A stretch of 64,000 bases of DNA from Haloarcula sp. CBA1127 (GTDB taxonomy: Archaea > Halobacteriota > Halobacteria > Halobacteriales > Haloarculaceae), in assembly GCF_001485575.1 (NCBI RefSeq), contig NZ_BCNB01000003.1, positions 1 to 64,000 on the forward strand. The letters run 5' to 3'. A program made the position numbers and the translations under genes. The notes beneath the pieces were generated by a model, which was not told where the DNA came from, made no database searches, and was given only the letters and a program-made list of their open reading frames with translations. Each line of letters opens with the position of its first letter. The first letter of the stretch is position 1. Positions 19,363-24,271 of the stretch are shown piece by piece.

Positions 19363-20274
19363 TCACCCAACCATGTGATTCTCGATATGCTGGAACCACA
19401 GACGGATCGTATTTGTATGCAAATCCACCGTCTCGCTTATCGTCGCTTGCGTGAGCCGGATATCCGACTCCTGGCCAGCAAGGTAGAGTGCGCCGGCTGC
19501 GATACCGTCTGGTCGCCCGTTGATCTCGGGGGACTCGGTTGCCTGCTCTGCCAGTTCGAGCGCTCGCTGGCGAATGTCCGGGGAAACGTCGAATGGAAGG
19601 TCCGAACAAATCCGTGCCACCCAGTCCACCGGGAGCGACACTGGTATCGGGAGGTCAAGTTCTGTCAGGAATGTCCGGTAGCAGTTCCAGATATGCGATG
19701 TAGAACACCGCGCAACGTCGGCTACCGTCTCCATCGTCACGAGGCCGTTGCATCGGCAGGCGGCGTACACAGCGGCCGCTGCACCGCCCTCAATCGACCG
19801 CCCGATTAGGAGGTCCTTGTCTTGGGCTTCCCGGAAGAGCGTGGATGCCTGCTCTTTCACCGCGTTGCTCTCAGACAGCGCACTCGCAATGCGTCGGATT
19901 TCGCCAAGCCCGTGAGCAAGATTCCGGTCGCGCTTGCTGTCGAACTTCGACCGGCCGTGGAGTCGCCGCTGGCGAGCAAGCCGTCGACGCCGTCTCGGGG
20001 AAATATCTGCACTCTCGACGCCGCCGATGTTCGTCGACAGGCCTCGGTCGTGGCGAGTGGCCGTCCGGGGTGCGCCCGTCCGCTTCTGTTCCGCCTTGTC
20101 GTACGCCCGCCACTCTGGCCTGCGGTCGATCTGGTCTTGCTCGGTCACCAGGCCACAGTTCTCACAGTGCGTTTCTCGCCCGCTACTATCAAGCGTGCCG
20201 CCACACTCGGGACAACTCGGCGTAGCTGTAGACAATTCTGTCTGGACAGTTTGCGAAGATATATTCCGAGACAT
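19363..20274 (-). CDS. tfb: Transcription initiation factor B (TFB) homologue (303 aa)
   Basis: N-terminal zinc ribbon C21-x2-C24 and C37-x2-C40, then the B-finger/linker region (RRPEWRAYDKAEQKRTGAP...STNIGG) and two cyclin repeats (about 105-195 and 205-300; EGGAAAAVYAACRCNGLVTM, then DGIAAGALYLAGQES). All parts of an active TFB are present. Haloarchaea use several TFBs for promoter choice; a plasmid-borne copy could redirect polymerase to element genes. Confidence 0.9.
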   Translation of the reverse strand: MSRNISSQTVQTELSTATPSCPECGGTLDSSGRETHCENCGLVTEQDQIDRRPEWRAYDKAEQKRTGAPRTATRHDRGLSTNIGGVESADISPRRRRRLARQRRLHGRSKFDSKRDRNLAHGLGEIRRIASALSESNAVKEQASTLFREAQDKDLLIGRSIEGGAAAAVYAACRCNGLVTMETVADVARCSTSHIWNCYRTFLTELDLPIPVSLPVDWVARICSDLPFDVSPDIRQRALELAEQATESPEINGRPDGIAAGALYLAGQESDIRLTQATISETVDLHTNTIRLWFQHIENHMVG

Positions 20275-20302
20275 CCTCTCACCCAATTGGGGGGTCAGAA
20301 AA
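20275..20302 (-). promoter_or_regulatory. Recurrent 5' hairpin element, copy 12
   Basis: TTTTCTG at 20296-20302, then CCC-aatt-GGG and the conserved GTGAGAGG directly before the ATG. It lies 17 nt after the stop of the SWIM gene. Confidence 0.55.
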
Positions 20303-21210: not shown

Positions 21211-22392
21211 TTACTGTTGCACCAAAGAATTGTCAGGATATCCTGCTCGGCGCTTCGCATTTCGTCTTTCTCGTTCAGTAAGTCGATACCGAGGCAATTC
21301 CTCTTCAAGCGGTGCAAGTGCCTTTCTTCGTTCCTGATGTGCTCCTAGAAAGTTCGCGATCTTCTCTGCGGCCATCTCCTTGAGTTCACCACTCAGAAGA
21401 GAGCCATTTCGGTACTCACGAGCGAGCTGGTCCATTCGCTTGTCACTTCCCTCGAAGAAGTAGTACAGGAACTGATACGAGACATCGACTTCCGGGTTCC
21501 CGCCCTGTTTTCGATGTTCTTCGAGACTTGTTTGCCCCCCTGAATAAGCATACGTTCGGATTTTGTCAAAGATCGTCTCTCTGTCGTTGGAGAGTAGAAT
21601 ACTTGGTGCATCGTCAGAGGAACTCATCTTGCCTGGGCCTTCGAGGCTTGGAAGGAATTTCGAGAGTAGGGCCCCAGGCTTGTCCACGTCGTAGCGTTGC
21701 TTGGCCGCAACATCGCGGCAGACGCGAACATGGGGATCTTGGTCAACCGCAATCGGGACAAGCGTCGGATGCCGTCCTTCGACGAGCTGTGGGAGGAGAA
21801 GGTGAGTAGCCTGAACGGCAGGGTAGAACGAGAGACCGATGTTCTCCGGATCACCATACGTAGCGTCAACCGTTGATTGAGTTACTTCCTTGGCGAAGGC
21901 GGTTGCAAGCGGATACACCACGTCAGCGTCAGCGGTATCGACGATGATCCGGGTCCGCTCGGGGTCGAATCCGACAGCGAGGAGATCGAGCAAGTTCTCA
22001 CGAGTGTAGCCGCTAATTTCGTCTAGCGGTTTGTCCTTGAGTAAATACTTCTCGTCGTCAGAGAAGGGGATATAGACTAGTGTGCCAGTTTGTTCTTGGA
22101 GATACTTGGCAAAGTAGAACGGAAAGATGTGACCGATGTGCATCGGACCCGAGGGTCCACGTCCCGTTACAATTGAGTGAAGTGCACCCTCGTTTGCGGC
22201 ATCCAGAAAGGCATCGACATCGCGTTCCGCATAGAACACGTCGCGGCGTACAAGTGGATGCCCTGGATCAGGGAATTTCTCTTTTTGCTCGGGCGTCAGG
22301 GCGTTAGCCCCGAACTTGTCTAGCAGTCGAGCGTAATCAATGTCACCTTCAACGGCGTAGGGCGTTACTGTGAAGTCGTCTTCTGCTGGCAT
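21211..22392 (-). CDS. trpS: Tryptophanyl-tRNA synthetase (393 aa)
   Basis: Class I synthetase charging tRNA-Trp: HIGH motif H85-I-G-H88 (GPMHIGHIF) and KMSSS at 255-259 (GKMSSSDDAPS); SFYPAVQATHLLLPQL fits the archaeal/eukaryal TrpRS family. Length normal, catalytic motifs intact. No hairpin element; instead a Trp-codon mini-ORF lies 96 nt upstream. Being an accessory element, this is probably a second copy; resistance to a TrpRS inhibitor or regulated supply are possible roles. The start MPAEDDF is preferred over upstream in-frame ATGs. Confidence 0.9.
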   Translation of the reverse strand: MPAEDDFTVTPYAVEGDIDYARLLDKFGANALTPEQKEKFPDPGHPLVRRDVFYAERDVDAFLDAANEGALHSIVTGRGPSGPMHIGHIFPFYFAKYLQEQTGTLVYIPFSDDEKYLLKDKPLDEISGYTRENLLDLLAVGFDPERTRIIVDTADADVVYPLATAFAKEVTQSTVDATYGDPENIGLSFYPAVQATHLLLPQLVEGRHPTLVPIAVDQDPHVRVCRDVAAKQRYDVDKPGALLSKFLPSLEGPGKMSSSDDAPSILLSNDRETIFDKIRTYAYSGGQTSLEEHRKQGGNPEVDVSYQFLYYFFEGSDKRMDQLAREYRNGSLLSGELKEMAAEKIANFLGAHQERRKALAPLEEELPRYRLTERERRNAKRRAGYPDNSLVQQ

Positions 22393-22487
22393 TGTATGTT
22401 TGATGTTAGGCGTCGCTTTGGAAGCAGTACAAATGAAAAAGCGAGTGAGCACCGCAGTAGAGCCAGCCGGGTTAAGCCCGTCCGACT
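22393..22487 (-). promoter_or_regulatory. trpS leader: hairpin and U-tract between leader ORF and trpS
   Basis: After the leader-ORF stop comes a GC-rich hairpin CGGG-cttaa-CCCG (22468-22480) and then a run of five U in the transcript (22436-22440), 44 nt before the trpS start. A leader-peptide hairpin with arms 22544-22550 and 22507-22513 lies just upstream. This resembles an attenuator layout. Confidence 0.5.
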
Positions 22488-22559
22488 CTAAATCGCGATA
22501 CTGTCCACTTCCCAAGAAACGTGCCAACGCCAGCGATTGGCGCGGGAAGTAGACACCAT
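22488..22559 (-). CDS. Trp-rich leader peptide of trpS (23 aa)
   Basis: Open frame ATG to TAG: M-V-S-T-S-R-A-N-R-W-R-W-H-V-S-W-E-V-D-S-I-A-I. Three of 23 codons are TGG (22530-22532, 22524-22526, 22512-22514), directly upstream of a tryptophanyl-tRNA synthetase gene in the same orientation. The Trp codons lie inside a possible hairpin with perfect 7-nt arms ACTTCCC/GGGAAGT. The mini-ORF would sense charged tRNA-Trp by ribosome stalling. Coding is inferred from position and Trp content, not from length. Confidence 0.55.
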   Translation of the reverse strand: MVSTSRANRWRWHVSWEVDSIAI

Positions 22560-22727
22560 ATCCACTGAATTTAGATTGAGTATGTTAGAAGTTTTCTATT
22601 CCAGTCGCTAGCTCTATTGAAATCCTCCGCGGCCAACAGGTACTGAGTCAGATCGTACGTTCGCACACTTACTGAGCGGGCGTTCCAGCCAGCATCATGG
22701 CTGAAGAAACTGCCTTTTCGCCGCCTG

Positions 22728-23639: not shown

Positions 23640-23944
23640 GTCGAGGCTCCCTCCGGTCTGTCTGCCATGTACGAGTTGGCAAGCTCCAGCCCGGCGTCGA
23701 GTGACCGGCGCGTCCCGACCAGTTTGGTCGCCCGTTCGAGCGTCCAGCTGTCGTCACCACCTTTGAGCAGGACTGTCGCTCCGGTGTCGGGAATGTGCCA
23801 GCCGATCGTGTCGTTGCCAGCGGCGAGAAATTCCCACTCGCCGGTAGCGGCCTCCTGTGCCGCGCTCTGTCTGTCAATCAGCGCATCCGAGCGTGGGCCA
23901 CCAGCGCCGAAATCACCCAACGTGGCTGTTCCTGCTGAGTTCAT
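23630..23944 (-). CDS. Hypothetical protein (104 aa)
   Basis: MNSAGTATLGDFGAGGPRSD...; WEFLAAGNDTIGWHIPDTGATVLLKGG looks beta-rich. Overlaps the previous gene by 4 nt and the next by 10, so these small genes are translationally coupled. Confidence 0.55.
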   Translation of the reverse strand: MNSAGTATLGDFGAGGPRSDALIDRQSAAQEAATGEWEFLAAGNDTIGWHIPDTGATVLLKGGDDSWTLERATKLVGTRRSLDAGLELANSYMADRPEGASTWR

Positions 23945-24243
23945 GCACAGGCCTCCCGGCAGTCCCAGCCAGCGAGTTCGGCATCGACGGCGCTGATGAT
24001 GGTTGTGACCTGTTCCTCTAGCGTGTCTGTCTGCTCACCGTCGACGTTCAGGAGCGAGCGAAGTTCGAGTATGTCCGGCAGGTCAATGCTGTCTGAGCGC
24101 TGGGCCACCGCACGGAGGACGACCGCCTCAACATCGGCGCTGTCGGACTGCCCTCGAACAGCTGTCGCAATGGACTCGACGAACCGCGAGGTGGTTGGCT
24201 GAGACAGGTCTTCCGAACGACGGCAGGACATATTTCGAGACAT
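23941..24243 (-). CDS. Hypothetical protein, first gene of micro-gene cluster (100 aa)
   Basis: MSRNMSCRRSEDLSQPTTSR...; helical. The hairpin element and the first codons (ATGTCTCGAAATAT) match those of the TFB gene at 20274 almost exactly, although the rest of the proteins differ. The end overlaps the next gene by 4 nt. Confidence 0.6.
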   Translation of the reverse strand: MSRNMSCRRSEDLSQPTTSRFVESIATAVRGQSDSADVEAVVLRAVAQRSDSIDLPDILELRSLLNVDGEQTDTLEEQVTTIISAVDAELAGWDCREACA

Positions 24244-24271
24244 CCTCTCACCCACCAGAGGAACACAAAAT
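24244..24271 (-). promoter_or_regulatory. Recurrent 5' hairpin element, copy 15
   Basis: ATTTTGTG (24264-24271), CCTCT-ggtgggtg-AGAGG, with the ATG immediately after the stem. This and copies 16 and 24 are the clearest short form. Confidence 0.75.

Follow-up and report, generated by a model that had tools for sequence, protein, structure and literature searches.

A conserved tryptophan-codon leader upstream of haloarchaeal tryptophanyl-tRNA synthetase genes: a probable ribosome-operated attenuator

The trpS locus and its leader reading frame

The window analyzed here is a 64,000-nt stretch of Haloarcula sp. CBA1127 DNA (NZ_BCNB01000003.1, positions 1 to 64,000). It is the start of contig C3 in a genome of nine contigs; its plasmid status is not proven, and several homologues lie on annotated haloarchaeal plasmids. 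The minus strand encodes a trpS2-type tryptophanyl-tRNA synthetase (TrpRS) of 393 aa (21211 to 22392, start ATG at 22392), which scores 557.6 bits with the NCBIfam model NF008927 (tryptophan--tRNA ligase; cut-off, 478 bits). All 116 of the 116 haloarchaeal genomes sampled also had another TrpRS, which shares about 33% identity with that of the window. Therefore, the trpS type that bears the leader described below is usually an extra copy. In Haloferax volcanii, trpS1 has endA upstream and its own promoters (PMC7714728), and in genome G086 and its relatives a gene with trpS1 sequence also stands after an endA-like frame. Depletion of the tRNA-splicing endonuclease in H. volcanii, with the resulting failure of tRNA-Trp maturation, is reported to raise trpS1 expression slightly (PMC7714728). 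Elsewhere on the minus strand of the window, the ORFs at 19363 to 20286 and 23941 to 24255 have near-identical starts (MGERMSRNIS and MGERMSRNMS) and are otherwise different, which suggests a duplicated start region. The ORF at 19363 to 20286 looks like a transcription factor B paralogue.

The original prediction placed a 23-codon, Trp-rich frame just upstream of trpS, and this frame is present on the minus strand at 22488 to 22559. It reads MVSTSRANRWRWHVSWEVDSIAI, with its ATG at 22559 and a TAG stop at 22488 to 22490. Codons 10, 12 and 16 are Trp codons (UGG, within 22512 to 22532). The first two, at 22530 to 22532 and 22524 to 22526, form a conserved W-R-W, and the third, at 22512 to 22514, is not conserved. 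The 5' region of trpS is about 167 nt long, counted from the leader ATG. A mini-ORF of the form ATG..WxW..stop arose by chance in 0.9% of shuffles of this single upstream sequence.

Spread of the leader and its promoter signature

By DNA search, the leader region turned up on six haloarchaeal plasmids, in five of them directly 5' of trpS. Protein searches covered 391 sampled genomes of the class Halobacteria and identified trpS homologues in 134 of them (E ≤ 1e-100), and we compared 119 distinct regions upstream of haloarchaeal trpS genes of the window type. Homologous trpS genes without the mini-ORF would have refuted the original prediction. However, a corresponding leader ORF was found in 108 of the 119 regions, with 13 to 37 codons, W-x-W in nearly all, and ATG (93) or GTG (15) as the start codon. 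Typical peptides are MVSTSHANCWRWHAFREVDSIAV, MQSAPAWRWRTQTPGADSVGSASGAA and MTAALEWQWRWQPRSRADSVLAVADAA. Haloferax mediterranei ATCC 33500 (L002) is among the carriers. Under a strict automatic criterion (ATG, W-x-W, 10 to 40 codons, within the last 320 nt before trpS), 92 of the 119 regions scored. Dinucleotide shuffles gave 0.27 on average and never more than 2 (60 rounds), and the opposite strand of the same regions held no such mini-ORF. The spacing from ATG to Trp takes eight lengths, all multiples of three; the search imposes this, yet 108 of 119 regions met it. In some relatives W-R-W is expanded to WQWRW or WRWRW, that is, by whole codons. As judged by these comparisons, the leader is a class-wide element of Halobacteria and is not specific to the plasmid gene of the window.

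The automatic search found no leader in 11 of the 119 regions (L051, L065, L066, L084, L097, L103, L109, L114, L143, L146 and L147). Two of these, L109 and L114, still have the arm 4 motif described below, and therefore some leader-negative regions may hold divergent or further-upstream leaders. In one subgroup (L055, L005, L006, L021, L056, L057 and L060) the leader is shortened to VSTSPETDERRWR, with a single Trp placed two codons ahead of the stop. The RNA retains arms 1 and 2, although arm 2 now lies 3' of the stop codon. A looser pattern search also matched unrelated coding sequence, e.g., G079:C2:1950450-1950496 and G001:C1:1237836-1237882. A recurring WRWRL..NGNIIADS-like coding sequence fits the pattern of Trp codons and GCGGACAG, and these matches are probably an unrelated protein family.

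The three codon positions of the leader are equally variable, and apart from the Trp codons and the frame we saw no selection on the peptide. Purifying selection on the leader peptide is thus unsupported. The absence of amino acid constraint outside W-R-W, beyond that on the RNA, is expected if the peptide is functionless; it gives no positive proof of translation.

Alignment of the 108 leader sequences on the leader start revealed an A+T content of 0.73 to 0.89 at positions -30 to -26 and an A-rich, BRE-like block at -36 to -34. No A+T peak appeared when the sequences were aligned on the trpS start. Because the peak precedes the leader and none precedes trpS, transcription is inferred to start at or near the leader ATG (about 22559), and the leader transcript is probably leaderless, an inference made without transcription start site data. 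In the window, the alignment with relatives points to a BRE/TATA-like element, GAAAAC TTCTAA, at 22585 to 22596 on the minus strand, 26 to 37 nt before the leader ATG. Its TATA-like part, TTCTAA, is weaker than the CTATAA of relatives. A start site downstream of 22559 would have counted against the original prediction; the promoter signature, which is no more than a sequence signature, lies upstream of the leader ORF instead.

These data bear on the possibility that the mini-ORF is a chance frame in a conserved RNA, or else part of an N-terminal extension of trpS. The trpS frame of the window is indeed open upstream as far as a TTG at 22527. However, the lengths of the upstream open frames differ widely among relatives, an extension is not conserved, and the promoter signature stands before the mini-ORF. 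The chance origin is mainly refuted by the conservation in relatives and by the shuffle test. We consider either version scarcely tenable and rejected the N-terminal extension.

The leader is not confined to trpS2. In three genera (g5, g6 and g7) of the family of the window, trpS2 is absent and the same leader stands before trpS1 (e.g., MASTSTDWRWRGPGVDSLAAVGRRA and MSASDGWRWRWQFPEADSLASPAAR; loci L222, L224, L226, L227, L229, L232, L234 and L240 to L249). In these genera the best match to trpS2 reached only about 1e-27 and was trpS1 itself, and their assignment to Haloarculaceae is inferred. It is as if the control element had been attached to the TrpRS gene that a genome happens to have. The genus of the window itself has no leader before trpS1. 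Upstream of 30 haloarchaeal trpC loci we found no W-x-W mini-ORF with the conserved layout, and we rejected the idea that the leader is a general trp-operon device. Among 13 non-haloarchaeal loci of trpS relatives there was no leader of such layout, only an unrelated-looking frame at L025. The Haladaptatus halobius plasmid NZ_CP085339.1 carries a decayed leader (L004:2503-2620) that is frameshifted upstream of its Trp codons and has no annotated trpS next to it. This remnant is a natural case of loss, and we count it in favor of an attenuator.

Pairing within the leader RNA

The leader from 22559 to 22394 has a predicted folding energy of -64.5 kcal/mol, against -46.6 ± 3.6 kcal/mol in dinucleotide shuffles, and it beat 200 of 200 shuffles (z = -4.9). 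The hairpin around the Trp codons had been predicted to have perfect 7-nt arms. These arms exist, but they belong to a longer stem of 11 bp with one G-U, which pairs arm 1 (GUCUACUUCCC, minus strand, 22544 to 22554), 5' of the Trp codons, with arm 2 (GGGAAGUGGAC, minus strand, 22503 to 22513). In the relatives, arm 1 lies in the first leader codons (S-A-P/L or S-T-S) as UCCGCUCCC or UCCACUUCC. Arm 2 lies after the Trp codons, in codons for ..R/G-A-D-S or ..E-V-D-S, as GGGAGCGGAC or as in the window. The second hairpin and the T5 run that were expected before trpS are both there: hairpin 3 at 22448 to 22502 (minus strand), which holds the leader stop codon in its 5' half, and the run at 22436 to 22440, followed by a C.

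Arms 1 and 2 covary. Double-change cells numbered 110, against 48 expected from shuffles, and pairing was 0.80, against 0.70 in shuffled sets (0 of 500 shuffles reached the observed value). When the register of the arms was shifted by one or two bases, pairing fell to 0.42 to 0.50. An arm paired better with its own partner than with the partners of foreign leaders in 95 of 102 cases. Compensatory changes occur at several positions (GC to AT, CG to TA and GC to CG) and recur in several stem types, one group having CUGUCUGCUGG/CCAGCGGACAG. The kinship of the sequences may inflate these shuffle tests. The outer stem of hairpin 3 covaries as well, with its observed pairing matched by 0 of 500 shuffles. 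The covariation of arms 1 and 2 thus supplies the stem joining both sides of the Trp codons that an attenuator requires.

UGG triplets within a hairpin before a synthetase gene also recall the T-box riboswitch, which controls synthetase genes in Gram-positive bacteria by sensing uncharged tRNA, with no leader translation. In a T-box-like element, a UGG specifier would pair with the tRNA-Trp anticodon, and translation of the leader would be unnecessary. However, the Trp codons are in frame with an ATG or GTG at the predicted transcript start, and the UGG repeats grow by whole codons. Moreover, the leader had no Rfam match at the gathering score or at E values up to 10, so that we rejected known RNA families, including the T-box covariance model. 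Sensing of uncharged tRNA and control of a synthetase gene would be shared, but we think it very improbable that the haloarchaeal leader works in this way. No tRNA gene was found in the leader.

Downstream of hairpin 3, relatives share a pyrimidine-rich motif, GCTCACTCGCTTTCTCG and its variants, which we call arm 4. The window version is GCTCACTCGCTTTTTC. Here arm 4 (UCGCUUUUU-C, minus strand, 22435 to 22444) contains a T5C terminator-like tract (T5 at 22436 to 22440, C at 22435; CTTTTTC in context). The intergenic termination motif of H. volcanii is a T stretch with a TC dinucleotide, and a T5C insert terminated 95% of transcripts in vivo in that organism (PMC7237163). The T-stretch motif occurred in 50 of the 108 leaders, against 10.6 in shuffles, although a strong T5 tract is missing from many leaders; termination is inferred here, not measured.

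Nine positions of arm 4 could also pair with arm 2, several of them as G-U. When arm 1 was excluded (nt 43 to 128), as a ribosome sitting on the Trp codons would do, the predicted fold paired UCGCUUUUU with arm 2 and enclosed hairpin 3. When arm 1 was included (nt 1 to 125), arms 1 and 2 paired, hairpin 3 formed, and the T-tract was free. Therefore, the window leader is predicted to have two mutually exclusive folds, 1:2 and 2:4. In RNA extended to nt 140, a further downstream segment, CUGCUUCC, is predicted to compete for arm 2. Across relatives, 2:4 pairing was predicted to be stronger than with shuffled downstream sequence in 84 of 108 leaders (mean, 0.72 versus 0.60). In the covariation test 77% of cells paired, against 75% in shuffles (23 of 500 reached the observed value), and this test is not decisive because arm 4 varies too little, often by G-U. 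Comparison of own with foreign partners was negative over a wide search span, and anchored tests were only weakly positive. The sequence comparisons thus support 2:4 pairing across relatives only weakly.

A leader ribosome and the 1:2/2:4 switch might instead alter translation initiation of trpS or the stability of its mRNA, with no effect on transcription. The anatomy would be identical, the T-tracts of many leaders are short, and the window gene has the 5' region of about 167 nt noted above. In A-type close relatives, arm 4 lies just 45 to 60 nt before trpS, and such control is not excluded there. However, relatives differ in how far arm 4 stands from the trpS start (some 45 nt to 180 nt or more), and the alternative fold of the window leaves out the trpS start. 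Control at the level of translation or mRNA stability is in our view unlikely.

A proposed model for attenuation in haloarchaea

We suggest that the leader is a ribosome-operated attenuator that places trpS under the control of charged tRNA-Trp, and we hold this to be likely. It is supported by the conserved mini-ORF, the position of the promoter, the pairing of arms 1 and 2 and of hairpin 3, the T-rich tract and the mutually exclusive predicted folds. A leader ORF with cognate regulatory codons before a gene of the same amino acid satisfies one criterion of a ribosome-mediated attenuator, and a promoter upstream of that ORF, known from its signature alone, satisfies another. Translation, stalling, 2:4 pairing in the cell, termination and the direction of the response are inferred.

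In this scenario, the polymerase would start at or beside the leader ATG with a ribosome trailing behind. When charged tRNA-Trp is ample, the ribosome would clear W-R-W and reach the stop, arms 1 and 2 would pair behind it, and hairpin 3 would form after its release. Arm 4 would then be single stranded, and transcription would end there in the manner of archaeal T-stretch termination, with the RNase FttA/aCPSF1 as the probable factor. When charged tRNA-Trp is short, the ribosome would wait on the Trp codons and cover arm 1. Arm 2 could then pair with arm 4 around hairpin 3, the U-rich tract would be masked, and the polymerase would read into trpS. The U-rich RNA that FttA binds lies behind the polymerase, and its cleavage falls about 15 to 25 nt from the 3' end (PMC11616081). 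We infer that FttA termination fits better than a purely intrinsic one, because masking needs a U tract that has already left the polymerase.

A further proposal, drawn from the analogy with Rho, is that FttA polices the coupling of transcription to translation (PMC11616081). The response could then be reversed: a stalled ribosome would uncouple from the polymerase, FttA would terminate, and Trp shortage would lower trpS expression. However, this direction is physiologically odd for a synthetase and leaves the conserved pairing of arms 1 and 2 and the arm 4 motif unexplained. We give it next to no weight.

Leader-peptide attenuation is a textbook bacterial mechanism. In the Escherichia coli trpL leader, arms pair as 1:2, 2:3 and 3:4, and the terminator hairpin is 3:4. 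Like proteobacterial trpL, the haloarchaeal leader has a short ORF with tandem Trp codons, a U-tract before the structural gene and folds that are predicted to be mutually exclusive. However, arms 1 and 4 compete for its arm 2, the candidate terminator is an archaeal T-stretch, and the trpC loci we examined lack such a leader. Therefore, the original proposal of attenuation as in bacterial trp operons, acting on a plasmid gene, is supported by the leader ORF, the promoter signature and the covarying arms, but the layout is unlike that of the E. coli attenuator and the element is not specific to a plasmid gene. The closest published counterpart comes from Streptomyces coelicolor, whose auxiliary, indolmycin-resistant trpRS1 was reportedly shown by Vecchione and Sello in 2010 to be under ribosome-mediated transcriptional attenuation (cited in PMC4787780). 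As in our reading of haloarchaeal trpS2, an extra TrpRS gene is placed under a ribosome-mediated attenuator. However, trpRS1 belongs to a bacterium with bacterial terminators, whereas the haloarchaeal leader combines a probably leaderless ORF, a T-stretch and 1:2/2:4 pairing around hairpin 3 in an archaeon, and in some Haloarculaceae genera it precedes the sole TrpRS gene. The TTTTTC of arm 4 resembles the T5C terminators of H. volcanii (PMC7237163), which are ordinary transcript 3' ends there and would here be maskable by arm 2.

We found no case of archaeal leader-peptide attenuation in the open-access literature (most subscription papers were outside the scope of the search), and it goes unmentioned in a 2021 review of transcription-translation coupling in archaea. 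With moderate confidence, we propose that a ribosome stalled on a leaderless mini-ORF lets the RNA mask an FttA/T-stretch terminator, class-wide and before either of two distinct TrpRS genes, a mechanism for which we found no published precedent. If true, the leader would be genetic evidence that haloarchaeal ribosomes stay near enough to RNA polymerase to determine whether it terminates. In genetically tractable haloarchaea the leader would also serve directly as a reporter of coupling, of termination by FttA and of leaderless mini-ORF translation, and it would explain how an auxiliary TrpRS is kept in reserve.
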